Assembly: GCF_001038455.1 (NCBI RefSeq)
Contig: NZ_LDUY01000022.1
Coordinates: 62,001-126,000, forward strand
Length of the DNA stretch: 64,000 nucleotides
Direction of reading: 5' to 3'
Source of the DNA: Fructobacillus sp. EFB-N1
GTDB taxonomy: Bacteria > Bacillota > Bacilli > Lactobacillales > Lactobacillaceae
The position numbers and the translations under genes are program-made. Each line of letters starts with the position of its first letter. Positions within the stretch are counted from its first letter, which is position 1. This document shows positions 1 through 64,000 of the stretch, piece by piece. Under the pieces are notes generated by a model that saw only the letters and a program-made list of their open reading frames with translations, was not told the origin of the DNA and made no database searches.

Positions 1-348
1 CTTCAAACCAGCTGCAGTGGTGCGCTTGTTTTGTTCCAAGTTGTCCTTGTAGTTTGAGTTTCCACCATCAATGATGATGTCGCCCTTATCCATCTTTTCA
101 ATCAAAGTATCGATTGTTGAGTTTGTTGGAACACCAGCTGGTACCATTACCCAAACAACCTTTGGTGATGGCAACTTAGCCAACATGTCATCGATTGTGC
201 TTGCGCCTTCAACCTTGTCTGAGTAGGCATCTGCTTCTGCAACAAAATCCTTGTTCAAGTCGAATGCAACAACTTCGTGACCATTGTCAACGGCGTTCTT
301 AACCAAGTTAAGACCCATCTTACCAAGGCCGATCATGGCAAACTTCAT
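1..348 (-). CDS. gnd: 6-phosphogluconate dehydrogenase (decarboxylating), N-terminal part
   Basis: Oxidatively decarboxylates 6-phosphogluconate to ribulose 5-phosphate in the pentose-phosphate/phosphoketolase route of heterofermenters. The visible 116 codons run off the left edge of the window. They show the Rossmann fold start MKFAMIGLGKMGLNL with the GxGxMG dinucleotide-binding loop at residues 7-12, a VMVPAG motif, and IIDGGNSNYKD, which is diagnostic of this family. The ATG is preceded by GAGG eight bases upstream. It is transcribed away from the RpiR-type regulator at 500, and the shared spacer holds both promoters. Identity is firm. Cofactor choice (NAD or NADP) cannot be judged from the fragment. 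Confidence 0.93.
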   Translation of the reverse strand, partial: MKFAMIGLGKMGLNLVKNAVDNGHEVVAFDLNKDFVAEADAYSDKVEGASTIDDMLAKLPSPKVVWVMVPAGVPTNSTIDTLIEKMDKGDIIIDGGNSNYKDNLEQNKRTTAAGLK

Positions 349-393
349 GTGTATTACCTCTTTTTTGAATTCTTCTATTAAACTACAAATTCT

Positions 394-422
394 ATTATAT
401 GAAAATTATTTACATGATGCAA
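394..422 (-). promoter_or_regulatory. gnd promoter
   Basis: On the minus strand, -35 TTGCAT (417-422) and -10 TATAAT (394-399) are separated by exactly 17 bp, about 50 bp upstream of the gnd start. This is a near-consensus sigma-A promoter and fits high expression of a central carbon gene. Confidence 0.7.
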
Positions 423-428
423 GCGATA

Positions 429-458
429 ATTGAAAATGAATTTCAATTTCGGTATAGT
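429..458 (+). promoter_or_regulatory. rpiR promoter with overlapping palindromic operator
   Basis: -35 TTGAAA (430-435) and -10 TATAGT (453-458) have a 17-bp spacer. A perfect inverted repeat, ATTGAAA-N5-TTTCAAT (429-447), covers the -35. RpiR/MurR family operators are often TGAAA/TTTCA palindromes, so this is the likely binding site of the regulator encoded at 500. It lies just upstream of the divergent gnd -35, so one dimer could affect both genes. Confidence 0.55.
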
Positions 459-499
459 ATTTATATTCTTAAGTTCTTCAATAATAAAGAGAGACAACT

Positions 500-1351
500 A
501 TGTCAAATTCAATTTTTGTTAAACTCGGACAAAATCCGGCCGGTTATAATCAGACCGAAAGTAAACTGATTACTTATATTAAGGCCAAACCCGCCGAAGC
601 CGCAACCGGCACCATCCGTGAAATGGCTGAAGAAACTGGCGTATCGACCGCTTCCATCTCACGCTTTGTTAAAAAAATCGGTTTCGCCTCCTATCGCGAC
701 TTTTCGGTGGCCCTCGCCTCTTATAATCAACGAAAGCCGCCCGTTGACTTGTTTGGTGAAATTGAGGATGCTGATGACACCGCCGCCATTACAAAAAAAG
801 TTTTTGCCGGTGCCCAAAACGCCCTTTCAATGACCATCGATAACCTATCCGCCGAAAAATTAGACCAAGCGGTGAAATGGCTGACTTCGGCGAAGCGAGT
901 TGGATTCTTTGGAATTGGTGGTTCTTCGATTGCCGCCTTTGATGCCTACCATAAATTCTTACGTACCCCAATCGATGTCATTTCTCATCCCGATTACGAT
1001 ATCCAATTGATGCAAGCCGTCAAGTTAACGCCACAAGACACCGCCGTCGTGATTTCCCACTCCGGTCGCAACGAAGATACCCTCTTTGTTGCCCAAAAGT
1101 TAAAGGACAACCAAGTTCCCTTTATCGCGATTACTTCCTTCGCCGATTCTCCTTTGGCCAAGATGGCTGATTTAGTCTTCTTGTCCTTAGCTGAAGAAAT
1201 TAACTTCCGGTCAGAATCGATGTCTTCTTTGGTCGCCCAGTTAACCATTATCGACACGCTCTTCACCCTTGCAGGCTCAAAGCTCCCAACACAAACGCAA
1301 CACGTCGTCGATACCATGCGCGATGTGATTGAGAGCACCCGCCTCCATTAA
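500..1351 (+). CDS. MurR/RpiR family transcriptional regulator with SIS domain
   Basis: A 283-residue cytoplasmic regulator. Residues 1-77 form the RpiR-type helix-turn-helix (a TIREMAEETGVSTASISRFVKKIGF-like helix pair). Residues about 125-255 form a SIS sugar-phosphate isomerase-like fold with GFFGIGGSS and the VISHSGRNEDT segment that normally contacts a phosphosugar effector. Length is typical. The start has a purine-rich site, AAAGAGAG. The gene is divergent from gnd, so a pentose-phosphate intermediate such as 6-phosphogluconate is a reasonable guess for effector, but that is inference. It ends just before a bidirectional terminator shared with udk. Confidence 0.88.
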   Translation: MSNSIFVKLGQNPAGYNQTESKLITYIKAKPAEAATGTIREMAEETGVSTASISRFVKKIGFASYRDFSVALASYNQRKPPVDLFGEIEDADDTAAITKKVFAGAQNALSMTIDNLSAEKLDQAVKWLTSAKRVGFFGIGGSSIAAFDAYHKFLRTPIDVISHPDYDIQLMQAVKLTPQDTAVVISHSGRNEDTLFVAQKLKDNQVPFIAITSFADSPLAKMADLVFLSLAEEINFRSESMSSLVAQLTIIDTLFTLAGSKLPTQTQHVVDTMRDVIESTRLH

Positions 1352-1400
1352 CCACTATTTCGGACCTTTGCTTAAAAATCAGCATTAGTCAACAAAAAAA

Positions 1401-1428
1401 ACGCACTGTTAATCAACAGTGCGTTTTT
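1401..1428. terminator. Bidirectional terminator between rpiR and udk
   Basis: Perfect 10-bp stem ACGCACTGTT/AACAGTGCGT with an AATC loop, T-run on the right and A-run on the left. It can end both converging transcripts. Confidence 0.85.
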
Positions 1429-1433
1429 ACGTG

Positions 1434-2069
1434 CTATTCTTGTTCTTCTTTTTCAACCATGGCAATTGCCTGGTTCATCAACATATCGATGGCCACAAAG
1501 TTTTCTCCACCTTCTGGTACGATAATGTCTGCATAACGCTTTGTGGGTTCAACGAATTGATTGTGCATTGGCTTAACGGTTGCCAAATATTGCTCAATCA
1601 CTCCTTCAACCGTCCGGCCACGCTCATGCGTGTCGCGTTGGAGACGACGGATAAAGCGAATATCATCGTCAGTGTCAACAAACACCTTCAAATCAAGCAA
1701 GTGGCGAACACGCGCATCGTTGAAAAGCAAAACCCCATCAACAATAATCACATCAGCCGGCTCAATATGAACCGTTTCGCTTGATCGTGTATGTTGTGCA
1801 TAATCATAAACCGGAATATCAATTGCCTGGTAGTCAATCAACTTTTCCAAATCAGCGACGAATCGATCAGTTTCAATCGAATCCGGATGATCATAGTTCG
1901 TCTTAACCCGCTCAGACATTGGCTTGCCCGACTGGTCCTTATAGTAAACGTCTTGCTGCAACAAAACTGGCTGGTTTGCACTTAAACGAGTGATTAACGC
2001 CTTGGAAACGGTGGTCTTACCAGAACCAGACCCACCTGTAATACCAATTAGTAACGGTTTCTTTGCCAA
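1434..2069 (-). CDS. udk: Uridine kinase
   Basis: Phosphorylates uridine and cytidine to UMP and CMP in pyrimidine salvage. The P-loop GITGGSGSGKTT lies near the N-terminus, followed by the YYKD motif and YDHPDSI, both standard for Udk. The reading frame is open upstream to 2102, but the first good ribosome site (TGGAGG) sits six bases before a TTG at 2069. This gives a 211-residue protein beginning MAKKPLLIG, the normal family length. An upstream TTG at 2102 lacks a ribosome site. The gene stands alone between terminators. Confidence 0.92.
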   Translation of the reverse strand: MAKKPLLIGITGGSGSGKTTVSKALITRLSANQPVLLQQDVYYKDQSGKPMSERVKTNYDHPDSIETDRFVADLEKLIDYQAIDIPVYDYAQHTRSSETVHIEPADVIIVDGVLLFNDARVRHLLDLKVFVDTDDDIRFIRRLQRDTHERGRTVEGVIEQYLATVKPMHNQFVEPTKRYADIIVPEGGENFVAIDMLMNQAIAMVEKEEQE

Positions 2070-2191
2070 AATTGCCTCCAAGGGGCTAAAAAGCCCACTC
2101 AATTATTTTTTCTTATCTAACCTATTTTACGTGATAACGGCCCTAAAAGCTAGTATCATTTTGTTTCAAAAAAGAAAATCGCGACATAAAA

Positions 2192-2222
2192 AGCCCGAAA
2201 TTTGTCTGTCAAATTTCGAGCT
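2192..2222 (-). terminator. Terminator of the MFS transporter gene
   Basis: A 13-bp stem with one mismatch (GCCCGAAATTTG pairing with CAAATTTCGAGC) and loop TCTGT. The run of A on its left is a U-run for the minus-strand transcript. Confidence 0.75.
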
Positions 2223-3722: not shown

Positions 3723-4736
3723 TTATTTAGTTCGTGTCGATCCTCGAGCAATCAAGGTGTATGGTAACTTAATTTGTGTTTCCGTCAATTTTTCACCGTT
3801 CATCAACTTTGTTAACATCCGCATGGCAACGGCCCCAATATCGTACTTAGGCTGGTTAATTGATGAAAGCTCTGGTCGGGAAACAATCGAAAAATTCGTG
3901 TTGTTTGATGTCACAATTTCCAAGTCTTCCGGTACCTTGTACCCATGGTCCTGATAATAGTTCAAGATGGAAACGGCAATTTCATCATCGTAAGCAACAA
4001 CGGCCGTCACATCCTGGGCCATTAAATCAGCAGCCTGTAGTTGGCCAGCCTCATAGGTCCGTGCTTTTGCAAAGACTAGCTGGTCAGCGTAATCGATGCC
4101 CGCTTCTTGCAAAGCACGTTGGTAACCAACTAAACGAAAATCCTGATCAATTGCCCGGTCTCTTGAACCAAGAACCAAAGCGATTCGTTGATGACCGCGG
4201 GCGAGCAACTTAGTGGTCACCGTTTCAAAGGCAGTCACATAATCGATATTGACGGATGGCAAAGCTTCATTCTCGGCCACCGATCCGGCCAAAACAATCG
4301 GAACGCCGGCAGATTGAATCATGGCCATCACTGGCTCCGAGAGCTTAGTCCCCATATAAATAATACCGTCGACCTGCTTCGTCAGCAGGTTTTTGATAGC
4401 CGTCACTGCCCGATCCTGTTCATCATCGGTATTGGTTAGCAAAGCATCGTATTGATACATTTGGGCGATGTCATCAACGCCGCGAGTCAATTCAGAATAA
4501 AAAATATTCGTCACATCCGGCATGACCACGCCAATGGTGGTAGTCTTCTTGGAGGCTAAGCCCCGGGCTACCGCATTGGGCTGATAGCCTAGCTCGTCAA
4601 TTGCCTTCAATACTTTGTCTCTGGTTGACTGGCGCACATTATCATTGCCATTAACAACTCGGGAAACAGTGGCCAGTGAAACTCCGACCTTTTCGGCGAC
4701 ATCATAAATTGTTGCGTTTTTCTTTTGCTCTGCCAT
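3723..4736 (-). CDS. ccpA: Catabolite control protein A (LacI/GalR family)
   Basis: A global carbon-catabolite regulator that binds cre sites with HPr-Ser-P as co-effector. The LacI-type HTH TIYDVAEKVGVSLATVSRVVNG is at about residues 8-30. The hinge YQPNAVARGLASKK and the segment TTTIGVVMPDVTNIFYSEL match CcpA rather than sugar-specific LacI relatives, and the 337-residue length is standard. AAGGAG lies eight bases before the second ATG (4736) but only two before the ATG at 4742, so the former is chosen. Its own promoter overlaps a perfect cre, implying autoregulation, and another cre lies in the promoter of the sugar-uptake gene at 58.3-59.3 kb. Confidence 0.92.
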   Translation of the reverse strand: MAEQKKNATIYDVAEKVGVSLATVSRVVNGNDNVRQSTRDKVLKAIDELGYQPNAVARGLASKKTTTIGVVMPDVTNIFYSELTRGVDDIAQMYQYDALLTNTDDEQDRAVTAIKNLLTKQVDGIIYMGTKLSEPVMAMIQSAGVPIVLAGSVAENEALPSVNIDYVTAFETVTTKLLARGHQRIALVLGSRDRAIDQDFRLVGYQRALQEAGIDYADQLVFAKARTYEAGQLQAADLMAQDVTAVVAYDDEIAVSILNYYQDHGYKVPEDLEIVTSNNTNFSIVSRPELSSINQPKYDIGAVAMRMLTKLMNGEKLTETQIKLPYTLIARGSTRTK

Positions 4737-5125: not shown

Positions 5126-5710
5126 CTACCGCATTTCCTCAACCAAGGTCAATTGTGTTCGACACTGACCACAGCGATATTTTTTCGTATCCACTCGTCG
5201 TTTTCGATAAAAGTCGTGCCCGTTTTGGCAACGATAATGCCATTTCACGCTCTGCTGCTTTCTTGGCTCTAAAGCCGGTGCATAGCGCGATCCACCGATT
5301 TGTTGCAAGAGTTTCTTAAAATCGGCATCCTTATGCTGGTAGCCTCGGTGCGCCAAATGGAGGTGATAATGGGTTAGTTCGTGCTTGACAATACCGATAA
5401 AATCAGCCCGATGGGCCATCTTCGGATTGAAGTCAATATGATGGTCAGCTAAGTGGTAGCGGCCACCCGTTGTTTGCAAGCGATTATTATAGATCGCTTG
5501 GTGCGTAAAAGGCCGGCCAAAGAACTCTAAAGAGACTTTTTCAACGAATGCCTGCAAATCAGCTTGTCTGAGTTCAGCCGATTCAAAGCCACGTCCAATT
5601 TCACTATGAGTAGTCGCTGCTGGTTTTTTATGCGTGGATGTCGTCCGTGGCGTTTTCACCTTCGGGCTAACATGCCGACGATCACGCCTGGTGAACATAG
5701 ACGTAATCAA
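5126..5710 (-). CDS. SprT-family putative zinc metalloprotease
   Basis: A predicted zinc peptidase-like protein. The active-site motif HELTH is at residues 110-114. A C-terminal zinc ribbon follows, with ligands near C161/H165 and C180/C183. SprT-like proteins are normally about 150 residues; here the open frame is 194 because of a basic, low-complexity N-terminal extension of about 45 residues. The frame begins inside the end of acpP (29-bp overlap) and no clean ribosome site is visible. Translation therefore probably depends on coupling to acpP, and the true start is uncertain (TTG 5710 or ATG 5698). Confidence 0.78.
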   Translation of the reverse strand: MITSMFTRRDRRHVSPKVKTPRTTSTHKKPAATTHSEIGRGFESAELRQADLQAFVEKVSLEFFGRPFTHQAIYNNRLQTTGGRYHLADHHIDFNPKMAHRADFIGIVKHELTHYHLHLAHRGYQHKDADFKKLLQQIGGSRYAPALEPRKQQSVKWHYRCQNGHDFYRKRRVDTKKYRCGQCRTQLTLVEEMR

Positions 5711-5930: not shown

Positions 5931-5993
5931 TTGTTACTCCTTCAGCGACTAACGGCTCGTGAGCAATATCATTCACGACCGTCAGGCTGATTT

Positions 5994-11392: not shown

Positions 11393-11423
11393 TACCTTTA
11401 TGAAAGTTATTGCACAAGCTGAT

Positions 11424-11726
11424 TTAACCCAATTTATTATCTAAGAGAATCTGCTTCATTTCAGCCTGAATATCATCCGGCTTAACCCACTCGTCAAAGT
11501 GGTCAGCTTCCAGTGGTAAAAAGTCATAGTGATGGTTAATAAAGTCCTCTACCTTTTCCACGTGAGAAGACCGCGGAATATTCATCTTCAAAATCCGAAC
11601 TTCTTTAATCATCCCATGCTCAGCAGCATACTCTGCTCGAGAGTTTTCGGAAATATTGCCCAGCTCGTAGTAAATTGTGCCATCGTTGCGGGTGATTTCT
11701 TCAATCAAATTAAACGTCTGATTCAT
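11424..11726 (-). CDS. Conserved-looking 100-residue cytoplasmic protein, unknown function
   Basis: A soluble, acidic protein beginning MNQTFNLIEEITRNDG, with a central beta-rich part and a helical C-terminus (DDIQAEMKQILLDN). It overlaps the end of the YibF-like gene by 17 bp and is therefore the third cistron of that operon. I do not recognise the family. The stop codon overlaps an AAATCAGC word. Confidence 0.7.
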   Translation of the reverse strand: MNQTFNLIEEITRNDGTIYYELGNISENSRAEYAAEHGMIKEVRILKMNIPRSSHVEKVEDFINHHYDFLPLEADHFDEWVKPDDIQAEMKQILLDNKLG

Positions 11727-23616: not shown

Positions 23617-23657
23617 GTCTTCAAAACAAAGCATTCATTAAAAAATCAGCTTGGTGC

Positions 23658-25443: not shown

Positions 25444-25579
25444 CACTTACTAAAATAATTATCTAGACCAAACACTTTCAGTCTTAGGGACCAGTGTTAA
25501 CCAAACATTAGCAAAGATTTCTTCGACAACAATACTGACAATCAAGTAATCGAAGCACCCTTGTCAGCAAAGCTGATTT

Positions 25580-34634: not shown

Positions 34635-35216
34635 TCAGTGTACTAATCTATCCCAGATAACCACTTCTTTCGATTTAAGAGATTTTGGCACATCAATAAT
34701 CCGCTGGTTGGCACTACCACGGAATTGGAGCGTCAAATCCTTTTCTTCCTCCAAGAACCGACCGTCAACCACGATATCGATTAGTGACAATAATTCCAAC
34801 TTGTCATCCGTTTCTTTCATCAACTCATCCCAGGTATAACCGGTCCAAGACCAAATATCCTTTTTATGGCCAAATTCCTGGCGGATCCGCTTGGCCAACT
34901 GTATGCAAACTTGGGTATTCAAGAAGGGTTCACCACCTAATAACGTCAAGCCCTGAACATAATCCTTTGATAAGTCTTTAATAATTTGGTCTTCAAGTGC
35001 CATTGAATAGGGCTGGCCATAGTGGAAATTTTGCGCAACCACGTTATAACAACCCGGGCACATAAACTTGCAGCCAGAAACATACAAAGAACACCGGACC
35101 CCCTCACCATCAACAAAGTTGAATGGTTTGTAGTCAGCAATGAACCCCTGACTAAGCTCTTCTGCAGTCCATTCTTTGGGCATCGGATTGTTTGGTTTTC
35201 TGATAGCTCGCGACAT
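34635..35216 (-). CDS. nrdG: Anaerobic ribonucleotide reductase activating protein NrdG
   Basis: 193 residues. A radical-SAM activase that installs the glycyl radical on NrdD. The CxxxCxxC cluster motif is at Cys49, Cys53 and Cys56 (GCKFMCPGC), and LLGGEPFLN is the SAM-binding GGE motif. The start has AGGAG ten bases upstream and lies 65 bp inside the end of nrdD, so expression is coupled to its substrate. Confidence 0.93.
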   Translation of the reverse strand: MSRAIRKPNNPMPKEWTAEELSQGFIADYKPFNFVDGEGVRCSLYVSGCKFMCPGCYNVVAQNFHYGQPYSMALEDQIIKDLSKDYVQGLTLLGGEPFLNTQVCIQLAKRIRQEFGHKKDIWSWTGYTWDELMKETDDKLELLSLIDIVVDGRFLEEEKDLTLQFRGSANQRIIDVPKSLKSKEVVIWDRLVH

Positions 35217-37362
35217 CTGTAATCATCTCCTGCGTTAAATGCTTGGCTCGTGCTGCAATTTCGACGTGACGGCCATGGACCATCGGGCGTTGTTGTGGAT
35301 TCCCAAGGTAACCACAAGTTCGCTTAACCACATCACACATCTGCGGATCGTGGTTGCCACACTGTGGACATTCAAAGCCTTTGGCTGTTGCCTTAAAGTC
35401 ACCAGAGAAACCACACTTAAAACACTTATCAATTGACGTATTGGTTCCCAAGTAGCCAACGTGGTCATAGGCCCAATCCCAAACAGCCTCTAAGGCTTGT
35501 GGGTTTTGACGCAAATTTGGATACTCACAGTAGTGAATAAAACCACCGGCAGCATACTTTGGAAAGGCCTCTTCAAAACTAATTTTGTCAAAGGGGGTTG
35601 GATGTTTACGGACATCATAGTGAAAACTATTCGTGTAGTATTCCTTTTCAGTAATGTCTTCAACCTTACCGAACTTTTCAATATCAGCCTCGCAGAAGGT
35701 ATCCGTCAGCGATTCTGCTGGCGTGGAATAAAGGCTGTAATGGTAGCTACTCTCCTTTTCCCACTCAACGCAGTAGTCATGCATCCGTTTAATGATTTCT
35801 TCGGCGAAGTCATGGGCCTCTTGGTTCCCTTCCCAGTTTGACCCATAAAAGGCAGCAACCGTTTCGTACAAGCCAATATAACCGAGCGAAACCGTGGCCC
35901 GACCATCTTTGAAGACTTCATCAACACTATCAGTCTTCTTCAAGCGCTTACCAAAGGCACCATACATATACAGGAGTGGCGCATTCTCCGGCACGGCCTC
36001 CTTGGTCCTTTCAATTCGATAAGCCAAGGCCTGATGGGTTAAGGCAATCTTTTCATCAAAAATTTGCCAGAAAAGTTCCTTGTCTTGCTTAGCAAAGAGC
36101 GAAATTCGGGGTAGGTTCACTGTGACAACGCCCAGGTTCATGCGACCGGAATTAACCTCTTGACCATTTTCGTCTTCCCAACCTTGCAAAAAGGACCGGC
36201 AACCCATTGGCGTCTTAAAGGAACCAGTAATGTCGATAATCTTGTCATACATCAGCAAATCAGGGTACATCCGCTTTGTTGAGCATTCGAGTGCCAATTG
36301 CTTAATATCATAGTTTGGATCTTTTGGGCTGAAGTTCAAGCCACGCTTGACCGTAAAAGTCAGCTTTGGGAAGATGGCTGTCCGCTGTTCCTTACCCAGA
36401 CCCTTGATGCGAATTTGCAGGATGGCCTTTTGAATTTCTCTTTCAATCCAGTTCGTTCCTAATCCAAAGTTAATCGTTGTAAAAGGTGTTTGCCCTTGAG
36501 AGGAATACAAGGTATTGATTTCATATTCCAAAGCTTGCATGGCATCATAGATGTCTTTTTGAGTTTTTTCCTTGGCATATTCAACTTCCTTTTCCTCGGA
36601 AACCCAATTCTGAGCATCAACTAAATGCTTGTCATAATTCTTCTTAGCAAAGGGGGCCAATAATTGGTCAATCCGGTTAGCCGAGCAACCACCATATTGA
36701 GATGACGCCACATTAGCGATAATTTGTGACATCTGTGCCGTTGCCGTTTGGATTGACTTTGGCGAATCCACCCAAGCGTTACCAATCTTGTAACCGTTGT
36801 TCAAGAGGTTATCAAAATCAATCAAGCAACAATTAGTAGCAGGTGTCACCGGTGAATAATCCAAGTCGTGCCAGTGAATGTCGCCACGCATGTGTCCCTT
36901 AGCCACCATCTTTGGTAGCATTTGCATCCCGAGTGCGCGGCTAGCAGCCCCAGCCTCCAAATCGCGTTGGGTATTAAAGACCCGACTATCCTTATTAGCA
37001 TTTTCATGGACGACAGATGCGTCCTTATCGAATAGTTTTTCAATTCGCTTCTGAACATTGGAAGCATCGGCGAACTTTTGTTTGTCTTTTTCCCAATACG
37101 TTTGGTATTGGTTGATGGCTTCTTCTTCGCCATGTTTTTCTAAACAAGCATTCAAGAGTGTCCGAATTTCTGAAGTCGTGACCTTCTTGGCTTTCGCCAA
37201 AGTTTCGGTCAATTCTGCCATTATGGCTTGAGCGGTTTCTGTCGATAAATTCAGGTGTTCCAGGATAAAGTCGATCTTATAAGCATAAAAGGCTATTGCT
37301 TCGCCACTTTGCTTGATCACGGTTAGCTGTTTCAATTGATTATTTTCGATTGCCTGTACCAT
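35152..37362 (-). CDS. nrdD: Anaerobic ribonucleoside-triphosphate reductase NrdD
   Basis: 736 residues. Makes dNTPs from NTPs without oxygen. An N-terminal ATP-cone (about 8-95) is followed by the ten-stranded barrel with the PVTPATNCCLID and SSQYGGCS cysteines. A zinc site (CFKCGF...CPQC) and the glycyl radical loop (RTCGYLG) lie near the C-terminus. It has a C-terminal tail that overlaps nrdG. AGGAGG lies 12 bases before the ATG. A LexA-like box lies about 70 bp upstream. Confidence 0.95.
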   Translation of the reverse strand: MVQAIENNQLKQLTVIKQSGEAIAFYAYKIDFILEHLNLSTETAQAIMAELTETLAKAKKVTTSEIRTLLNACLEKHGEEEAINQYQTYWEKDKQKFADASNVQKRIEKLFDKDASVVHENANKDSRVFNTQRDLEAGAASRALGMQMLPKMVAKGHMRGDIHWHDLDYSPVTPATNCCLIDFDNLLNNGYKIGNAWVDSPKSIQTATAQMSQIIANVASSQYGGCSANRIDQLLAPFAKKNYDKHLVDAQNWVSEEKEVEYAKEKTQKDIYDAMQALEYEINTLYSSQGQTPFTTINFGLGTNWIEREIQKAILQIRIKGLGKEQRTAIFPKLTFTVKRGLNFSPKDPNYDIKQLALECSTKRMYPDLLMYDKIIDITGSFKTPMGCRSFLQGWEDENGQEVNSGRMNLGVVTVNLPRISLFAKQDKELFWQIFDEKIALTHQALAYRIERTKEAVPENAPLLYMYGAFGKRLKKTDSVDEVFKDGRATVSLGYIGLYETVAAFYGSNWEGNQEAHDFAEEIIKRMHDYCVEWEKESSYHYSLYSTPAESLTDTFCEADIEKFGKVEDITEKEYYTNSFHYDVRKHPTPFDKISFEEAFPKYAAGGFIHYCEYPNLRQNPQALEAVWDWAYDHVGYLGTNTSIDKCFKCGFSGDFKATAKGFECPQCGNHDPQMCDVVKRTCGYLGNPQQRPMVHGRHVEIAARAKHLTQEMITDVASYQKTKQSDAQRMDCRRA

Positions 37363-49218: not shown

Positions 49219-50580
49219 TTAAACAGATGGAATTTGACCCAAAGCAGTTTGCGCTGCCAAATTCAAGACAGACCATTGACGGTCATAACCAGGTTGGAAG
49301 AAGAAGTCGGCCTCGGCCAAGTCTTCCAAGGTCATCTTGCCCTTAATTGCCAAGGCAATCGTATTGGCATGGGCAGTGACGTCGGCCTTTGATAAGACCT
49401 GGCCACCCAAAATTGCATGTGTCTTGGGGTTGAAAATCAGTTTCACGCTGATTTCTGGATTACCTTCCTTCACGAATTCAGGTCGGATTGTCGCTTCATA
49501 CAATGAGGAAGCAATTTCTAAGTTCATCTTAGCTGCATTATTGGCGTTCACACCGGTTGTTGCCAGGTTGTAATCGAAGACTGGCAAAGCAGATGAACCG
49601 TTAACACCAGCAAATGAACGCGCAGGCTTGTCCATCGTCATCGTTTCAATCACGTAACGTGCTTCACGACGGGCAGTTGAAGCCAAAGCAATTGGCGCTG
49701 GTTGACCAGCTGGCGCAAAGAGTGGCAAGATGGCGTCCCCAATTGCGTAGACATCCTTGGCAGAAGTTCGCAAGTATGGGTCCGTCTTAATCCAACCACG
49801 TTGGTCTAAGTCGATCGTTCCCTGCAAGTACTTCGTATTTGGCTTAACACCAGCCGCAACAATGGCCAAATCAGCATCAAATACTTGACCGGCATCGTCC
49901 TTAACCTTTGTCAACGTACCATCCCCTTCAAAGGCAGCAACCGTATGACCGAGGTGTAAGTTCACTCCGTTCTTTTCCAATTCAACTCGAACCTTTTCAG
50001 CCAATTCAGCGTCAAGGTAGTTTCCCAATGGGCGGTCGATCAAGTCAATGACCGTCACCTTCTTGCCTGCCTTCGCAAAGACTTCAGCAGCTTCGATTCC
50101 AATGTAGCCAGTTCCAACGACGACAACGGAAGAAACGGCATCATCATGCAACTTGTCATAAATCTTGGTTGCCCAATCACGACCGCGCATCAGATAGACG
50201 TTATCCAAATCAGCACCGGGAACTGGAATTGTCGCTGGCGTAACACCAGAAGACAAAATCAACTTATCGTATGAATCTTCCAAAACTTCGCCGGTCGCCC
50301 AATTCTTGACGGTCACCTTCTTGGCGTCCGTGTCAATTCCAGTCACTTCGTGTTGCGTCAAAATCTTGCCGCCAAACTTTTCCAAATCAGCTGGCTTAAA
50401 GTTACGAACATCATCGCGGTCCGTCACCTTGTCTTCTAAGAATAATTCTATTCCACAAGACATAAAGGACACAAAGTCACCTGCTTCATAAACAGTAACT
50501 TGTGCATCTGGGTATCGAGTTAAAGCTTCATGTGCGGCTTCGTGACCACCATGAGAGGCACCAACAACAACAACTTTCAT
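49219..50580 (-). CDS. NADH peroxidase/oxidase-family flavoprotein (Npr-like)
   Basis: 453 residues. An FAD enzyme using NADH to reduce H2O2 (Npr) or O2 (Nox). His10 and the redox Cys42 (SFMSCGIELF) that forms the sulfenic acid are present. The NADH fold shows VVVVGTGYIGIEAAE, and FAD binding is seen in DVYAIGDAI. The opening GASHGGHEA, LMRGRDWATKI and DRPLGNYLD look closer to enterococcal Npr than to water-forming Nox, but the two cannot be split with certainty. Start at the ATG with GGAGG six bases upstream. It neighbours metal/peroxide genes. Confidence 0.85.
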   Translation of the reverse strand: MKVVVVGASHGGHEAAHEALTRYPDAQVTVYEAGDFVSFMSCGIELFLEDKVTDRDDVRNFKPADLEKFGGKILTQHEVTGIDTDAKKVTVKNWATGEVLEDSYDKLILSSGVTPATIPVPGADLDNVYLMRGRDWATKIYDKLHDDAVSSVVVVGTGYIGIEAAEVFAKAGKKVTVIDLIDRPLGNYLDAELAEKVRVELEKNGVNLHLGHTVAAFEGDGTLTKVKDDAGQVFDADLAIVAAGVKPNTKYLQGTIDLDQRGWIKTDPYLRTSAKDVYAIGDAILPLFAPAGQPAPIALASTARREARYVIETMTMDKPARSFAGVNGSSALPVFDYNLATTGVNANNAAKMNLEIASSLYEATIRPEFVKEGNPEISVKLIFNPKTHAILGGQVLSKADVTAHANTIALAIKGKMTLEDLAEADFFFQPGYDRQWSVLNLAAQTALGQIPSV

Positions 50581-50708
50581 TTTCATCCTCCGTTAAAATA
50601 ACTTCGATTTGCAATAACAAAACTTCACATACATTATAAAATTTTTTCAGCATTAAGCCAAGACTTTTTTAAAAAATTTCAGTTAGACCATTTTTAAAAC
50701 TTTTTGTC

Positions 50709-51425
50709 TTAAAACAGCTTACCAATGCTAAAGTGAATCACAATGGTTAAGAGCCCAATCCAAATATTTCTGATAACCGCTCGTTTCACCATTCCCTTTG
50801 ATAAGAAAGCTGAAATGAGACCGGTCAAAGAAACGGCCACCACCGTTGCCAAAATAGCTGCAATATATTGGTATTTCATCGATGATAAAAGGAGTGCCAA
50901 AAGCGGCAGGGCACCACCAAGCGCTGCCGAAAACGTTGAAGCAAAAGAGGCCTCAATTGGTGAAACGTAGTGACCAAGGGTCATATCATATTTGACGGAC
51001 AAAATCGTTTCCAATGGCTTTTGTGCTAACAACTCAACTGCGATGGCCTTGGCTGTTTCAGCGGTCACACCCCTGTCTTCATAATAGGCTTGAACTGTTG
51101 CCAGCTGTTCATCAAAGTTTTCCTTTAATGCCACTCGCTCGCGATCGACTGCCACCCGTTCACTATCCGACTGTGAAGAAACCGCTGCAAATTCACCCGA
51201 TCCCATTGATAAGGCACAGGCCAACAAGTCTGACAACGCCGCAATGACAATCACAAGCCGATTCGTTGTCGCTGCCGCAACTGAGAAAACAACCCCAACA
51301 ACTGTCAAGATACCATCGTTTGAACCTAGGATTCCTGCTCGAATCGCATTTAGCCGTTCTTCCATTGTCTGACCGCTCTTTTTTTCCTCACGGCGGTCAC
51401 TAACTGTACTTAAAACATTTTTCAT
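50709..51425 (-). CDS. VIT1/CCC1-type iron/manganese transporter, copy B
   Basis: 238 residues. Five membrane helices with a long cytosolic insertion after helix 2. The N-terminal helix has the family motif RAGILGSNDGILTVVGVV, then SMGSGEFAAVSSQSDSE. GGGGGAGA precedes the ATG. It follows copy A by 15 bp and shares its topology but has diverged well below simple duplication. Probably moves Mn2+ or Fe2+ across the membrane. Confidence 0.88.
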   Translation of the reverse strand: MKNVLSTVSDRREEKKSGQTMEERLNAIRAGILGSNDGILTVVGVVFSVAAATTNRLVIVIAALSDLLACALSMGSGEFAAVSSQSDSERVAVDRERVALKENFDEQLATVQAYYEDRGVTAETAKAIAVELLAQKPLETILSVKYDMTLGHYVSPIEASFASTFSAALGGALPLLALLLSSMKYQYIAAILATVVAVSLTGLISAFLSKGMVKRAVIRNIWIGLLTIVIHFSIGKLF

Positions 51426-51440
51426 CTTTTTTCTCCCCCA

Positions 51441-52115
51441 TTAGCGAAAGAGTGAACCGATTGCTAGCGTCACAGCCATTGTTAAAATTCCGGCAACAAG
51501 GTTCCTTAAAGCACCTCTAACCCGGTTAGCACCATTAATCACGGCGGCTAAATAACCTGTGATTAATAATGCTACTAAGACTGCTAAAAATGTCGCTACA
51601 ATTCGCCACTCTGGTTTTGCTAAGCCCATCAATGTCATTGGAAAGGCTGCTCCGGTTGGGAAGGCGAAAAAAGAGACGATAGCGGCACCACCAGCAGAAA
51701 CCTTGGAATTTAGCGAAAAGCCAAAGCGTTCGCGCACCATTGTTTCTAAAGGATCCTTTGCCATCATTTCTTTTGTCGCCTGCAAAGCCATCTGAGCTGA
51801 AATGCCATCAGCTTGATACTTATCTTTGACAAAATTAAATTCTTTGTTGTAATCTTGTTCTAACACCTTCGATTCCTCTTTGCGAGCGCGGTCTTGAGCG
51901 TCTCTCGATGATTCAACCGAGACATACTCACCCATAGCCATCGAGACCATGCCGGCAAGCGTTCCTGCAAAACCTGACAACATCACCGCCGTCAGGCTTT
52001 GGCCCGCACCGGCCACTCCAATAATAATACCGGCAACCGATAGAATCCCATCATTGCCACCCATGACGCCCGCACGAACCAAGTTGTTTTGGGCCATTAA
52101 TGACTTTTTTTTCAT
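51441..52115 (-). CDS. VIT1/CCC1-type iron/manganese transporter, copy A
   Basis: 224 residues, first gene of the tandem pair. NLVRAGVMGGNDGILSVAGIIIGVAGA is the N-terminal signature, SMAMGEYVSVESSRDAQDRA the second-helix acidic motif, and the C-terminal helices end in LAIGSLFR. The ATG at 52115 has GGAGG ten bases upstream (a TTG two codons before is closer). It is divergent from a Fur-family gene whose spacer contains related inverted repeats. Confidence 0.88.
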   Translation of the reverse strand: MKKKSLMAQNNLVRAGVMGGNDGILSVAGIIIGVAGAGQSLTAVMLSGFAGTLAGMVSMAMGEYVSVESSRDAQDRARKEESKVLEQDYNKEFNFVKDKYQADGISAQMALQATKEMMAKDPLETMVRERFGFSLNSKVSAGGAAIVSFFAFPTGAAFPMTLMGLAKPEWRIVATFLAVLVALLITGYLAAVINGANRVRGALRNLVAGILTMAVTLAIGSLFR

Positions 52116-52133
52116 TCTCAATAATCCTCCTCA

Positions 52134-52182
52134 ATTAAGAATGGTTCTAATATAGTTTATCAGCTTCCTTTCCGTTTGTCAA
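52134..52182 (-). promoter_or_regulatory. Promoter and proximal operator of the VIT1/CCC1 pair
   Basis: -35 TTGACA (52177-52182), 17-bp spacer, -10 TAAACT (52154-52159). Just downstream lies ATTAAGAA-TGG-TTCTAAT (52134-52151), an imperfect inverted repeat in the initial transcribed region. Confidence 0.5.
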
Positions 52183-52234
52183 GAAAATGTGTAATTCTGA
52201 TAAATATCTTTTCTAAGTCATTAATGTCCACTCT

Positions 52235-52262
52235 ATTCTTATTTAGATAATTAATTAAGAAT
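52235..52262. promoter_or_regulatory. Distal inverted repeat between metal transporters and fur
   Basis: ATTCTTATTTA-N6-TAATTAAGAAT has 10 of 11 arm positions matching. The half-site TTAAGAAT recurs in the proximal repeat at 52134, suggesting one regulator binds both, possibly the Fur-family protein. Confidence 0.45.
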
Positions 52263-52309
52263 AATCCCAATGTAAAGCCACAAATTCTAAAATATTTGTC
52301 AAGAAGTCT

Positions 52310-52358
52310 TTGAATTGTTCTAATCACATGTTATAATCGTAATGTATTCGATACATTA
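52310..52358 (+). promoter_or_regulatory. fur-family gene promoter with inverted repeat at the transcription start
   Basis: -35 TTGAAT (52310-52315), 16-bp spacer, extended -10 TGT-TATAAT (52332-52337). The perfect repeat TAATGTAT-TCG-ATACATTA (52340-52358) covers the start point, a strong candidate for autoregulation. Confidence 0.6.
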
Positions 52359-52370
52359 GGAGGGGAAAAT

Positions 52371-52775
52371 ATGCTTGATCAGCTGAAATCCGTTTTACAA
52401 GAACACAAACTTAAGGCAACTAATCAACGGTTGACCTTGCTAGAGTACATGATGAGTCATGACACCCACCCTACGGCGGAAATGATTCATAATGATTTGC
52501 CAGATATTTCTCTAGCAACTGTTTATAATACTTTGGAAAAATTTGTTAATGCTAAATTAGTCGTCGTGATTGAGGGAATTTCAGATGGTAAGCGTCACTA
52601 CGATGCCGCCTCTCATCCCCATTATCACGTCATTAATACGCAGACCAACGAGATTATCGATGCAGCTAACTTTGACCCTGCGCCCCTGATCAAGGCTGCC
52701 CAGGCTGCAACCGGTTTGCAAATTACCGAGTATCGAATCGATTTGTATGGCATCAAACCAAACGCGAACGACTAA
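52371..52775 (+). CDS. Fur-family metal/peroxide regulator lacking cysteines
   Basis: 134 residues. The winged helix LKATNQRLTLLEYMMSHDTHPTAEMIHNDLPDISLATVYNTLEKF is classic Fur/PerR. The metal region has DGKRHYDAASHPHYHVI. The usual C-terminal CxxC structural-zinc pairs are replaced (INTQTNEI where HAICxxCG is expected) and the protein contains no cysteine at all. It could be a PerR- or Mur-like sensor. The divergent metal transporters and nearby NADH peroxidase-like gene support metal or peroxide sensing. Confidence 0.85.
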   Translation: MLDQLKSVLQEHKLKATNQRLTLLEYMMSHDTHPTAEMIHNDLPDISLATVYNTLEKFVNAKLVVVIEGISDGKRHYDAASHPHYHVINTQTNEIIDAANFDPAPLIKAAQAATGLQITEYRIDLYGIKPNAND

Positions 52776-52791
52776 TTAACAATTGCAACAC

Positions 52792-52827
52792 AAAAAACCA
52801 GTACTGAAAAATTTCAGTACTGGTTTT
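52792..52827. terminator. Bidirectional terminator between fur and pbp2b
   Basis: AAAAAACCAGTACTGAAA and its complement with a short AATT centre, T-runs on both strands. Confidence 0.85.
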
Positions 52828-52856
52828 TTTGATGCTTATTGTCTTTTTAACTAATT

Positions 52857-54896
52857 TTAACTTGGCTTATTCATCACAGTATCCCAAAAGGCATTAATAA
52901 TTTCCTTTGAGATACGACCATTTGTTCCATCCAAATAGGAGTTCAATCCTGGAATAGCCAAAGACATGGCAAATGGTTGACCTGGTACATAAGCCACCAT
53001 TGACTCAGTATAAGTCGAATGACCATTGGTTGTTGTTTCGGCAGTACCAGTCTTGGCATAAACCTGTGGCGACAAGCCGTGCAAACTAGATCCCGTGTTA
53101 TGTGGGTCTGAACCGTTGGCCACTCGGTACATTCCATTCTTAATGACATTCCATTGATCCGTGGTCAAAGAGACTTGACCTTGAAGTTGTGGTTGTGCCG
53201 TCCAAACGGTCTTTTGGTTCTTACCAGAAACATCACTCTGCAAAACCGAACCAACCAAGTGCGGCTGGACTAGGTAACCACCGTTAGCAATTACTGAAAC
53301 GTAACGAGCCAACTGCATGGTGGTATAAGAATCGTACTGTCCGAAGGATTCGTACAAATATTTTCCAATATTGGCACCGTCTGTCGGTCCACGATAACCC
53401 GCTGTTTCGCCATCAATATCGATTCCCGTCTTCGTTCCCAAGCCAAACTGTGCCAAACCATTGCGCAACGTTTGGAAGGCATCAGAACGAAGCTTCAACT
53501 GTTCACCCGGATAATAAGTCTGACCACCGATTTTCATTCCCAATTGAACGAAGTAAGTGTTCGAAGACCGTTCCAAGGCTGTTGGGGCATCAACGGCCAC
53601 CGGACTACCACCCTGGTTCCAGTATGAAGTAATGTTTGGCGTTCCTTGAATCTTAATCGCCTGATCATACATCGTATTGTTCGTTGGGGTGACCACGCCT
53701 TTTTGGAAACCAGTGGCCAGGATAGCTGGCTTAACAACAGACCCCATGACGATGGCAGCATTAATGTTTCCTAACGGATTGGCCGTCTTCGTTCCAGTCT
53801 TACTATCACGACTAACCCCACCCATGGCATAAATTGCACCAGTATAGGGATTAATAACAGTCGCATAAGCTCCTTGCACATCACCCCCAGGCAAATTATC
53901 TTCCAAAATTTGTTGCACTTTCTTTTGGAAGGCAGAGTTGATGGTCAACTTCAAAGTGTCACCAGCCTGTCCCTCATACTTAATATCAGAACTCTTGACA
54001 CCATTCATCGTCGAAATCACCGTTTGTGATGGTGACCCCTTCAATAGTGATTCATACTGCTTTTCAAGAGCAAAGCTACCAACCGGTTCATTTTGTGAAT
54101 AACCCTGTGCCAACAGTGTGTGCAATCGGTCTTCCGGCAAACCAGTTGATTCATTGGTGACCGTACCAACCATTGGTTCGAAATCATTCCCCTCAGGATA
54201 ATCACGAGAGAAAGACTCGCCAATCTTGATACCAGGCATATCAGACAACCGTTCCCCAATTTCAGCCTGTGCCTTATCGGAAACACCTGACTCTTGGATG
54301 TAGGTTGTTGATAGCGCGTAGGCTCCTGACATCTTTTGGAAAATCATCGCCTGGTTGGCATCAATATCCTTATCCAGATTATGATTCATCACGTACTGCG
54401 CTTGGTAAGTACTCAATTGAGTAGACGACCAACCATCGGCAGTCTTCCCATATTGCTTTTGCAACTTCGTTTGAATCTTTGTTGCTTCCGTTGAGTTTGT
54501 CACGAGATAGTAATCGGCCTTCGCCCGATTACTTAAACGACTAGTATCGATTGAAATATACTTGGATAGCGTCTTGGCAATTTTAGCAATCTGGGCCGAA
54601 GTCGTTGTTTTTCCTCTAGTATAAGTCACTGCCGCTTCGGGCTTATTACCGGTAATGACTTTACCGGTACTATCATAAATCAGGCCACGCTGGGCGCTAC
54701 CTAATTCAACGGTTTCATCGGACTTGCTAACCTCTGTTTCAAAGGCTGGTCCCTGTTTGATTGTCAGAAAGGCCAATTGAATAATCAATGCCATTGTTAA
54801 AGCAATGACGACGCCTAAAAGTAATTTTAGCCGGGATGGCAAGTTTGCTCTGGCGTCATTTTTATCACGGTCTTCAAGGTAAGGATTGCGCTTCAT
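52857..54896 (-). CDS. Penicillin-binding protein 2B-type transpeptidase
   Basis: 679 residues. Class B PBP for peripheral wall synthesis. A cytosolic tail precedes a single membrane helix (about 22-44), then a PBP dimerisation domain, then the transpeptidase with SVVK (Ser near 385), SSN near 442 and KTGT near 614. The ATG at 54896 follows GGAAAG seven bases upstream; a start five codons earlier has no ribosome site. Divergent from yfhO. Confidence 0.9.
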   Translation of the reverse strand: MKRNPYLEDRDKNDARANLPSRLKLLLGVVIALTMALIIQLAFLTIKQGPAFETEVSKSDETVELGSAQRGLIYDSTGKVITGNKPEAAVTYTRGKTTTSAQIAKIAKTLSKYISIDTSRLSNRAKADYYLVTNSTEATKIQTKLQKQYGKTADGWSSTQLSTYQAQYVMNHNLDKDIDANQAMIFQKMSGAYALSTTYIQESGVSDKAQAEIGERLSDMPGIKIGESFSRDYPEGNDFEPMVGTVTNESTGLPEDRLHTLLAQGYSQNEPVGSFALEKQYESLLKGSPSQTVISTMNGVKSSDIKYEGQAGDTLKLTINSAFQKKVQQILEDNLPGGDVQGAYATVINPYTGAIYAMGGVSRDSKTGTKTANPLGNINAAIVMGSVVKPAILATGFQKGVVTPTNNTMYDQAIKIQGTPNITSYWNQGGSPVAVDAPTALERSSNTYFVQLGMKIGGQTYYPGEQLKLRSDAFQTLRNGLAQFGLGTKTGIDIDGETAGYRGPTDGANIGKYLYESFGQYDSYTTMQLARYVSVIANGGYLVQPHLVGSVLQSDVSGKNQKTVWTAQPQLQGQVSLTTDQWNVIKNGMYRVANGSDPHNTGSSLHGLSPQVYAKTGTAETTTNGHSTYTESMVAYVPGQPFAMSLAIPGLNSYLDGTNGRISKEIINAFWDTVMNKPS

Positions 54897-54995
54897 TTGA
54901 ATTCTTTCCATTTATGTTCATTATGATTCTCTCTACTTTACCATAAAAAGCGAATTTATCGCTAAATTTCAACCGAATTTTGTTATTCTAGAGGC

Positions 54996-59384: not shown

Positions 59385-59390
59385 CAAAGG

Positions 59391-62015: not shown

Positions 62016-62057
62016 GAAAAAAATCCACCTATCTTTGTTTTTTAATTCATTTCTAAC

Positions 62058-63062
62058 TTACTTTAGTTTACCCCAGGCTTGGATATCTTGCAAAAATTCT
62101 TGCAAGGCCTTTTGGTCCTTAACGGAAGGATACTGTCCCATCAAAACTTCTTGCTTTGGCAGCGCATCTTTCTTCCGTAAAACCAAGAAAGCTTTCGCCT
62201 GTTCTTGATTTTGGAAATACTCTGCTGGCAGTGACAAGAATGCCTTTAATTGAGCCTTTTGTGAGAATAATTTCAGGATTGACTCATGCCGTGGCCCTGT
62301 TAATAAATCATTTGGCACGATGAGATAGATCCAACCATCATCCCTCACTAAGTCTAATGATTTTTCAATCATTAAATAATGAGCATAAGATTGGCCATCT
62401 TGTTCTGAAAAGGCTGTGACAAAGTTTTCTGGTGCTTCTTGCGGGTAGTAACCGATTGGTAAATCACCAATCACAACATCAGCAGGCGCAACTTCCTCGT
62501 TTTTCAAGCCAACAACATCCCCCAAAAACAGTGTTGGGTCTTCTTTAAGCGCAGCTGCCAATTCACTGGCCAAATCAAGCTGACCTTCATCGTTATCAAT
62601 CCCAATTAAATCGTGGGGCAAAAGGTCATGACGACTAAAGCTTTCAACAATTGTCCATAGGAGGTTGCCAGTGCCAATGACCATGTCATTGATACTCGTT
62701 TGTTCACTAGGATTAGCTGTCTGGTAAATCAGCTCGCCCAAAAGATAACCAATACCATCTGGGGTTAACTGAAGGTTTGCTGGTACTTTATCCTCTCGAT
62801 CAGCTTTCAAAACCAAAAGTTGTAAGATATTACGTTGGTCGCTGAAAGACAATCTTGGCCAGTCAATCTCTTCTAACGACTGTAAAGCCTTTTTAGAATC
62901 ATCAGCCAATTGGTCATGGTCGGAGCTAAGAATCTCTTTTTTATTTAACCTCTCTAAAGCCATGACAAGGGCTTCTCGATTGGTCGTTTTTTCTTGATTT
63001 TTCACCGTCACGACGGCTTGATCAATTTTTTCAAAATATGCAGGAATTTTTCGATTTATCAT
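62058..63062 (-). CDS. YtxK-type class I SAM-dependent methyltransferase
   Basis: 334 residues. An N6-adenine-methylase-like fold: the SAM loop is seen at DMVIGTGNLLWTIV, the acidic turn at LIGIDNDEGQLDLA, and a DLPIGYYP motif replaces the usual (N/D)PPY. It lies between comG genes and ackA as in Bacillus (ytxK) and lactobacilli. The target is unknown; a specificity domain of the restriction type is not present. Confidence 0.85.
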   Translation of the reverse strand: MINRKIPAYFEKIDQAVVTVKNQEKTTNREALVMALERLNKKEILSSDHDQLADDSKKALQSLEEIDWPRLSFSDQRNILQLLVLKADREDKVPANLQLTPDGIGYLLGELIYQTANPSEQTSINDMVIGTGNLLWTIVESFSRHDLLPHDLIGIDNDEGQLDLASELAAALKEDPTLFLGDVVGLKNEEVAPADVVIGDLPIGYYPQEAPENFVTAFSEQDGQSYAHYLMIEKSLDLVRDDGWIYLIVPNDLLTGPRHESILKLFSQKAQLKAFLSLPAEYFQNQEQAKAFLVLRKKDALPKQEVLMGQYPSVKDQKALQEFLQDIQAWGKLK

Positions 63063-63099
63063 GGTCTTATTTTAGCCCTTTTTGCTAGTCTAGACAAGG

Positions 63100-63420
63100 C
63101 TAAGGGGCTAAAAGTGGTCGCCAGTAATCCTGATGTTTGATAGTAATTTTAATCTGCTTTTCCCCCGATTCAATTAACCAAGGATCACCCTGAATTTGGC
63201 CAGATTGTTGATTATCTTGGTAAAACAATCGCGATGCTTCAATTTGCCTTGTATCGATGATAGTCGTTTCCAACAATAATAATTGGCTATGCAGCTTTTG
63301 GTGAAAAATTTTTGTCTGTAAAAAGAACAGCAAGCCAATGAGTGTCAATGCCAAAATTGTCGGTAACAGTAAGTAGGCTGGCTGACGGTTTCGCTGCTGG
63401 CGTGGCTGATTATTAAACAT
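63100..63420 (-). CDS. ComGG-like competence protein
   Basis: 106 residues. One hydrophobic helix (about 15-36) after a basic Q/R-rich start, then a pilin-like extracellular part (FYQDNQQSGQIQGDP). Placed after comGF, where comGG is expected. Sequence conservation in this family is low, so position and layout carry the call. Confidence 0.65.
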   Translation of the reverse strand: MFNNQPRQQRNRQPAYLLLPTILALTLIGLLFFLQTKIFHQKLHSQLLLLETTIIDTRQIEASRLFYQDNQQSGQIQGDPWLIESGEKQIKITIKHQDYWRPLLAP

Positions 63421-63444
63421 CTTTTACCCTTCTTCTACAATGGC

Positions 63445-63873
63445 CTATTTCGTGTTAGGCAAAAAAAGTGTGCCGCTCGCTTTCTCATGCCCCCGATCAA
63501 AAACAGTCAAAAGCTGATAGGTTCCAAAATTATCAATCCGTAAATCATCAATCCCATGTAGCAAGAGCACGCGACCATGATGAGTCCCAGCCAAAACTAA
63601 GTCATGCTTAGCAATTTTCAACGTAACCGGATCGCCAATGGTCTTCTTCAGCTGAATTTCACGCACTTGAACTTGATCAAGTTGATAGTTTTGCCGACCC
63701 AACTGTGTTAAAGCCGCTTGAAAATCCATCTGCATATCTTGCGTCTGCCCCCTTTTACTTTGTGGCAAAATGACCATTATTGCCTCAAAAACCATTGCCG
63801 CCACAAGGAGTGCCAGGATTGCTTCCACCATGGTAAAGCTGTTCCGGCTATTTTTACTTTGAACTGCCGTCAT
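63445..63873 (-). CDS. comGF: ComGF-type pseudopilin
   Basis: 142 residues. The type IV prepilin-like segment SFTMVEAILALLVAAMVFEAIMVI begins near residue 10, with Glu at +5 of the predicted cleavage site. The rest matches the ComGF pattern (QMDFQAALTQLGRQNYQL, HHGRVLLLHGIDDLRI, LTVFDRG). AAGGAAG precedes the ATG at 63873. Part of the transformation pseudopilus operon. Confidence 0.78.
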   Translation of the reverse strand: MTAVQSKNSRNSFTMVEAILALLVAAMVFEAIMVILPQSKRGQTQDMQMDFQAALTQLGRQNYQLDQVQVREIQLKKTIGDPVTLKIAKHDLVLAGTHHGRVLLLHGIDDLRIDNFGTYQLLTVFDRGHEKASGTLFLPNTK

Positions 63874-64000
63874 GGTTGGCTTCTTCCTTTTGCTTTTGAT
63901 TTTGGTCAACAAAAGACTGCCATCTCTCTAACGCCTTTCTTTTTTCCTGGTTGGCCGCCTTATTCTGCAAAATCAGTTCTCGCTGCTTTTTCTGATAGTT
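63854..64000 (-). CDS. C-terminal end of an upstream comG gene, probably comGE
   Basis: 48 codons open to the right edge, ending in TAA at 63854 and overlapping the comGF start by 20 bp. The tail is very polar (RKALERWQSFVDQNQKQKEE), normal for the C-terminus of ComGE/ComGD. The identity rests on position. Confidence 0.55.
   Translation of the reverse strand, partial: NYQKKQRELILQNKAANQEKRKALERWQSFVDQNQKQKEEANHDGSSK

Follow-up and report, generated by a model that had tools for sequence, protein, structure and literature searches.

The 64,000-nucleotide stretch of Fructobacillus sp. EFB-N1 analyzed here (hereafter the window; positions 62,001–126,000 of contig C22 in a genome of 1.64 Mb and 68 contigs, which we call G000) carries at high density the heptamer AAATCAG and its complement CTGATTT, and our analyses suggest that AAATCAG may function as a self-recognition word of the Fructobacillus tropaeoli group, exact, non-polar and 7 bp long, with DNA uptake as its most likely role, a reading to which we give about even chances. 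We are led to uptake because the word is exact, abundant, non-polar and conserved in position, is confined to few species, gives way to a different word in sister species, and stands beside competence genes.

An earlier note on this DNA had counted by hand about 100 copies of AAATCAG and about 40 copies of the octamer AAATCAGC, and had called both over-represented. The exact counts are 106 (63 on the plus strand and 43 on the minus strand, over 1–64000) and 42, against 15.2 and 4.1 expected from dinucleotide shuffles, and none of the 100 shuffles reached 106; the chance figures offered before (10 and 2–3) were somewhat low. All 11 copies given as examples were found again, on the plus strand at 1376–1382, 1849–1855, 4024–4030, 5400–5406, 5556–5562 and 23643–23649, and on the minus strand at 1167–1173, 2246–2252, 5987–5993, 11419–11425 and 25573–25579 (the last five listed there as 1166, 2245, 5986, 11418 and 25572). 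AAATCAG also leads all 7-mers of the window in over-representation under a third-order Markov model (106 vs. 21.0), and the comparison that the note had proposed, with a fifth-order model, likewise gave an excess (106 vs. 66.5); this maximal-order model was fitted to the window and to the genome samples described below, not to the whole genome. What did not hold is the eighth base: given AAATCAG, AAATCAGC is found as often as expected (42 vs. 43.2), and its eighth base, C, shows no constraint (ratio 1.17), so that the octamer was rejected as the true word. At about 1.7 copies per kb, the word occurs in both genes and spacers of the window; 87 copies lie wholly inside simple open reading frames (ORFs; open frames of at least 90 amino acids, which are not gene predictions), 19 lie outside or at their edges, and five reading-frame classes are used, in agreement with what had been claimed. 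The longest stretch of the window that is free of the word, 50384–54677 (4.3 kb), covers most of a PBP2B-like gene (52857–54911).

The word was counted on both strands of 120 genomes, namely G000, 12 further Fructobacillus genomes (G001–G012) and 107 others, with genome sizes rounded for densities. There are 2183 copies in G000 (1085 + 1098), 1628 in G001 (818 + 810) and 2384 in G002 (1320 + 1064), and 253–558 in each of the remaining 10 Fructobacillus genomes. The excess, which might have been limited to the window or to one protein motif, is thus genome-wide, with the 2183 copies of G000 spread over 1.64 Mb. The density in the word-rich clade of G000, G001 and G002 is about 1150–1400 per Mb; the densest of the 107 genomes from outside the genus (G040) reaches about 557 per Mb, and no comparable density was found among the 10 other Fructobacillus genomes and the 107 further relatives. 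In samples of G000, G002 and G001, AAATCAG is the top 7-mer, at 4.5, 4.7 and 3.1 times its third-order expectation, and it also exceeds the fifth-order expectation (237 vs. 144, 309 vs. 183 and 591 vs. 370, respectively); by the third-order ratio it is not clearly enriched in samples of G012 (1.4), G005 (0.8) and G003 (1.1). Across 144 kb of C22, the identity of G000 in the aligned parts is 95.3% to G002, 89.3% to G001, 79.0% to G012, 77.6% to G005 and 73.9% to G003, and we infer that AAATCAG rose mostly after the split of the word-rich clade from G012 and G005. The genome that bears the window is close to F. tropaeoli: among the best 80 of 270 loci, the NrdD protein of the window (nrdD, 35152–37362) is 97% identical to that of F. 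tropaeoli F214-1, and the second-closest match is from Leuconostoc carnosum (76%). F. tropaeoli is the only Fructobacillus among these best 80 of 270 loci, and other species of the genus may lack a close nrdD copy.

Copies per kb in ORFs and spacers are 1.59 and 1.68 in G000, 1.03 and 1.09 in G001, and 1.63 and 2.02 in G002, and inside ORFs five of the six frame classes are occupied; a stop codon rules out the sixth. Within genes the sense-strand form CTGATTT is favored, and the flanks of AAATCAG are mildly biased, with A at −1 and C at +1. Terminator-like inverted pairs were rejected as an explanation, as close inverted pairs are not in excess, and so was an even spacing, since gaps are near random (coefficient of variation 0.95–1.04), with slightly fewer gaps below 100 bases than expected. 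In the comparison of accessory with core DNA, for which only small unaligned parts were usable, these parts were not poor in AAATCAG.

Substitutions are suppressed at the word. Constraint within the word-rich clade was measured on one 144-kb stretch of a G000 contig aligned to relatives, by a codon-matched test in which third-base changes at codons of the word are compared with those at the same codon elsewhere, the first two bases being unchanged; the changes counted are mostly, not all, synonymous. Observed and expected changes were 4 and 15.8 on the G002 tip, 3 and 15.8 on the G000 tip, 23 and 81.2 from G001 to G000, 23 and 78.3 from G001 to G002, and 43 and 66.0 from the state common to G000 and G002 to G001; from G002 to G012, a genome without the excess, there was no suppression (158 observed, 138.5 expected). 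Across the seven bases the ratios are 0.00, 0.23, 0.37, 0.21, 0.26, 0.23 and 0.33. Position −1 shows a weak effect (0.62), positions −2 (1.38) and directly behind the word (1.17) show no effect, and farther out the ratios scatter between 0.35 and 1.73, the low values resting on few counts. Because third-base changes are suppressed at all seven bases and not consistently outside them, the word is seven bases long. An unbiased screen ranked AAATCAG first of 7014 7-mers by constraint (z −13.0; 69 changes vs. 252.0 expected); the four comparisons pooled for this screen and for the per-position ratios have sites in common, and z assumes that sites are independent. Retention of the whole word from G001 to G000 is 135 of 171, against 0.501 for anagrams of the word (p = 3e-14), and all 27 spacer copies compared were retained from G000 to G002 (27/27, p = 0.0016, a small number). 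Positions of AAATCAG are therefore conserved between relatives above background, more weakly so in spacers and, when anagrams serve as the control, for G001 and the two tips. At 27 sites where all three word-rich genomes share the word, G012 is one base off; these differences fall into ten kinds, touch every one of the seven positions and are not polarized in direction. Because the differences are of so many kinds, one mutational mechanism is disfavored, and a single mutational step is an unlikely source of the word.

The outgroup G012 further permits gains and losses to be assigned to lineages. At sites with the word in G000 and G002 and a one-base difference in G001, G001 has lost it 19 times and the G000/G002 line has gained it 20 times (408 and 264 for anagrams); at sites with the word in G001 and a one-base difference in G002, G002 has lost it 3 times and G001 has gained it 11 times (445 and 605 for anagrams). 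Losses in G001 and G002 thus stand at 19:3, compared with 408:445 for the anagram controls (p = 0.0003). When the ancestral third base is taken from G012, the loss ratio is 0.53 in G001 (9/16.9), 0.20 in G000 (4/19.7) and 0.34 in G002 (7/20.4), and with G005 as the outgroup it is 0.62 in G001 and 0.39 in G002. G001 appears to be losing AAATCAG faster, yet below the full background rate.

The orientation of AAATCAG follows gene sense, not replication. In pooled samples of the three word-rich genomes, which are partly orthologous and whose leading strand was inferred from the GC skew of each stretch, the leading-strand polarity of CTGATTT is 493:277 for genes on the leading strand, 61:97 for genes on the lagging strand and 106:85 for spacers. 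The plus-strand preference in the window, put at about 60% by the earlier note and counted at 63 of 106 (59%), is real and follows gene sense, most genes here lying on one strand; it is not a matter of replication. A different word, GGGGATG, is over-represented genus-wide and has a leading-strand bias of 151:6 in the word-rich clade, 169:12 in G006–G009, and 57:5 and 33:0 in two more sample sets; it is constrained in the G006/G008 pair (z −5.6) and less clearly so in G007/G009 (z −2.9 and −1.7). GGGGATG is a good candidate for a Chi site of Fructobacillus or for a KOPS (FtsK orienting polar sequence). Because AAATCAG lacks the replication orientation of Chi and KOPS words, whereas GGGGATG is strongly oriented in the same samples, both roles are disfavored for AAATCAG.

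Other members of the genus have other words. In the same constraint screen on two further Fructobacillus pairs (about 94–108 kb aligned), CAAAGTC and AAAGTCG came out on top, with z −7.9 and −7.8 of 4770 words in G007/G009 and z −8.2 and −6.7 of 5717 words in G006/G008, and AAATCAG showed no constraint in either pair (ratios 0.86–1.28). Genome counts of CAAAGTC are 1311 in G007, 1190 in G009, 978 in G008, 958 in G011, 935 in G006 and 713 in G012, with 448–588 in the remaining seven Fructobacillus genomes and 200–550 in eight genomes from outside the genus. Because one screen yields CAAAGTC and AAAGTCG in these two pairs, the genus seems to have word dialects, a feature of uptake words that G006–G009 display with CAAAGTC/AAAGTC. 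AAATYAA is perhaps a third dialect: AAATTAA and AAATCAA are the top 7-mers in samples of G005 (L140–L146, L180), and with 2982 copies genome-wide AAATYAA is only mildly enriched. In another genus of the Lactobacillaceae, G069 (loci L222–L227) has 746 copies of AAATGCAG, compared with 17–254 in 200 other genomes of the family; 24 copies lie in about 57 kb of contigs, mostly in unrelated contexts and three of them within a tandem repeat. These figures are from genome counts and a contig listing, a k-mer sample that double-counted overlapping loci having been set aside, and AAATGCAG is a species-specific word of G069. In 80 kb of samples from G065 (L234–L237), CCTGGATA/TATCCAGG is found 19 times, with 2 copies expected.

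At the right edge of the window lie competence genes, and the comG genes that the earlier note had placed there are real. On the minus strand are the 3′ part of comGE (63857–64000, its remainder on the neighboring stretch, L113), a comGF-like pseudopilin gene (63448–63873) and a comGG-like gene at the end of the operon (63103–63420), names that we presume from the place of these genes in the comG operon, which continues just beyond the window edge with comGA–GD. Matches to dprA, comGB and comEC were found in 13 of 13 Fructobacillus genomes. Competence genes are thus present, and each of the word-rich genomes has a lesion in them. The comEC match of G000 is broken over two contigs: on one, homology ends at about residue 155, where the contig itself ends, and on the second, past a divergent segment, it skips from residue 218 to 346; as these breaks lie at contig ends, they may stem from the assembly. 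In G001, comEC is spread over several frames and lacks parts, and comEA and comGA (the latter near its start) each contain a frame break; G002 has intact comEC and comEA and a premature stop in comGA. Because G000 retains an unbroken comGA, and G002 an unbroken comEC and comEA, all three genes were most likely whole in the common ancestor of the clade. Elsewhere in the genus, comEC matches are split in G005 and G009, dprA is split in G009 as well, stops fall inside comG matches of G007 and G012, and comEC is without a frame break in G003, G004 and G010. Lesions in comEC, comEA, comGA, comGE/GF or dprA are frequent across the genus and apparently independent (G000 C17/C22; G001 L132/L109; G002 L123; G009 C12/C10; G012 L138; G007 L245; G005 L180); behind each, a sequencing error is possible.

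We infer that the force that maintains AAATCAG is uptake and that its reader is a competence protein. The Com pilus, ComEA and ComEC would favor the uptake or processing of word-bearing DNA over wordless DNA, and recombination with word-bearing fragments would then spread and repair AAATCAG at about 2000 places. Sister species would read AAAGTC (best as CAAAGTC or AAAGTCG), and the words would serve as dialects that favor exchange within the species. The faster erosion in G001 fits this idea, because G001 carries most com lesions. More tentatively, and with a likelihood that we place a little below even, there may be an uptake-word system in the Bacillota, in which several Fructobacillus species, and perhaps G069 with AAATGCAG, possess their own words, with some part of the monoderm competence machinery as the reader. 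Sequence-specific uptake would then have arisen outside the Neisseriaceae and Pasteurellaceae, with changes of dialect within a genus.

Several observations weigh against uptake. All three word-rich genomes have com lesions (comEC in G000; comGA, comEA and comEC in G001; comGA in G002), and yet the constraint on AAATCAG persists on the short tips of G000 and G002; its upkeep may thus be possible without competence, or else the lesions are recent, which would explain the tip constraint. The faster loss in G001 would accord with decay after competence is lost, but the gap to G002 in loss ratio (outgroup G012) rests on 9 and 7 events, and AAAGTC shows no such pattern, as its losses do not track com status (G009 18 and G007 10, but G006 29 and G008 13). 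Samples of G003, G004 and G010 (140, 40 and 40 kb) contain no comparably strong word, though their comEC has no frame break, and the words of the two clades have little in common beyond AAA. The retention data are also uneven: of the words common to G000 and G002, G001 keeps 125 of 203 (0.616), the same as anagrams (0.622); on the G002 tip the excess over anagrams is weak (125/131 vs. 0.904, p = 0.06), on the G000 tip there is none (125/137 vs. 0.885, p = 0.41), and in spacers the other three of four comparisons, all with small numbers, are not significant. Among the flanking positions, low ratios occur at −12 (0.53), +12 (0.41) and +15 (0.35) from the word start, on few counts. AAATCAG is also shorter than known uptake words and has no excess of inverted pairs. 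Finally, RexB, the subunit searched for, has long open frames with no internal stop in each of the 13 Fructobacillus genomes, for which reason a Chi role is possible; these matches lie below the curated cut-off, which none of 21 genomes reaches.

Such a role would mean that RexAB, an AddAB-type enzyme, recognizes the word, halts degradation and starts recombination, a shift in RexB specificity explaining the differences between species. The open RexB, the abundance and conservation of a word that is not bound to one reading frame, and the persistence of its constraint in genomes with com lesions would all agree with this. Unlike the Chi words that we know of, CTGATTT is not G-rich. Nor does AAATCAG have the replication polarity of a Chi site, as is evident from the spacers (106:85) and lagging-strand genes (61:97), and it erodes faster in G001 despite the open RexB of this genome, while the polar and G-rich GGGGATG of the same genomes could itself be the Chi site or KOPS. 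Chi words do vary between species, as one account states (PMC3630211), and even so we regard a Chi role as distinctly unlikely. The two precedents named in the earlier note, Chi sites and uptake words, have thus fared differently: uptake is favored by the lack of polarity and by the dialects, and Chi is weakened by the missing replication polarity. AAATCAG is accordingly filed here neither as Chi, because it lacks replication orientation, nor as a proven DNA uptake sequence (DUS).

A role as a KOPS-like word that orients the chromosome for FtsK would suit an abundant and conserved word. KOPS are polar by definition, however, and since AAATCAG is non-polar and GGGGATG is the polar word of these genomes, we consider this role very improbable. 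Alternatively, the word could be a binding site for another genome-wide factor whose specificity has shifted between species, such as a nucleoid protein, a methyltransferase or defense system that marks self and non-self, or a factor of unknown role. Strong constraint on a non-polar word, an upkeep that does not clearly depend on competence, and the separate word of G069 (AAATGCAG, with its 746 copies) are what one would expect of such a factor. Words targeted by restriction and defense systems, on the other hand, are usually avoided in genomes, not accumulated, and for about 2000 exact sites placed without regard to genes or spacers we know of no precedent beyond uptake words, Chi and HIP1-like words; we therefore think another factor unlikely, yet worth serious consideration. 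An artefact of composition, codon usage or mutation could be suspected from the favored sense-strand CTGATTT in genes and from the biased bases at −1 and +1, and it is hardly credible in view of the excess over third- and fifth-order Markov expectations, the copies in spacers, the codon-matched suppression of third-base changes and the many kinds of difference in sister species. Composition and codon bias are rejected by the Markov counts and the codon-matched test, and the claim of the earlier note that codon or protein bias would not suffice agrees with this. An uptake word remains the role whose features AAATCAG shares most fully: it is the top word of the genome, is present on both strands and in genes and spacers, is non-polar, is conserved in position and has dialects.

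If AAATCAG is an uptake word, a small Gram-positive genus with dialects would offer an independent case for studying how such words spread, by drive or selection, and which part of the pilus reads DNA. If its role is rather that of Chi, a Chi word without polarity that varies within one genus would itself be surprising. In either case, the codon-matched constraint screen finds such words without prior knowledge and is usable across bacteria.

Among known systems, the KOPS of FtsK and the SpoIIIE recognition sequences (SRS) are, like AAATCAG, short, genome-wide and conserved; they are polar, which fits GGGGATG and not AAATCAG. The Chi sites of RecBCD, AddAB and RexAB are likewise short, exact and species-dependent words, and RexB is present here, but AAATCAG has no replication orientation, is not G-rich and is denser than most Chi words that we are aware of. 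We know of no uptake words in Gram-positive bacteria, and neither AAATCAG as a genome word nor uptake words in Lactobacillaceae or Fructobacillus were found in a literature search whose scope left out most subscription papers; the three papers that it turned up with the letters AAATCAG have titles on unrelated subjects. The uptake signal sequence (USS) of Pasteurellaceae is a genome-wide self word as well; it is flanked by AT-rich parts, whereas the constraint on AAATCAG weakens at the borders of the heptamer. The USS has 9 bp, as given in PMC3630211, compared with 7 bp for AAATCAG. According to PMC1626085, complete sets of competence genes survive in only four of the Pasteurellaceae genomes studied there, and broken competence genes are reported from this family, too. 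Competent species outside Neisseria and Haemophilus are nearly all described as sequence-blind in DNA uptake in PMC12040237. The DUS of Neisseriaceae differs from AAATCAG in length (about 12 bp according to PMC3630211, vs. 7 bp), and AAATCAG differs from it in having no excess of inverted pairs, a Gram-positive host, no known ComP, and com lesions in the sequenced strains. The sequence around AAATCAG diverges more than that around control words (0.111–0.120 vs. 0.087–0.098), to which the choice of sites contributes here, and the same is described for DUS in PMC2397512. Neisseria genomes of 2.2–2.3 Mb hold about 1900 DUS (PMC3630211), and like AAATCAG the DUS is the top over-represented word, has a similar copy number, lies on both strands and in genes and spacers, is conserved in position, and comes in dialects that differ between related species.

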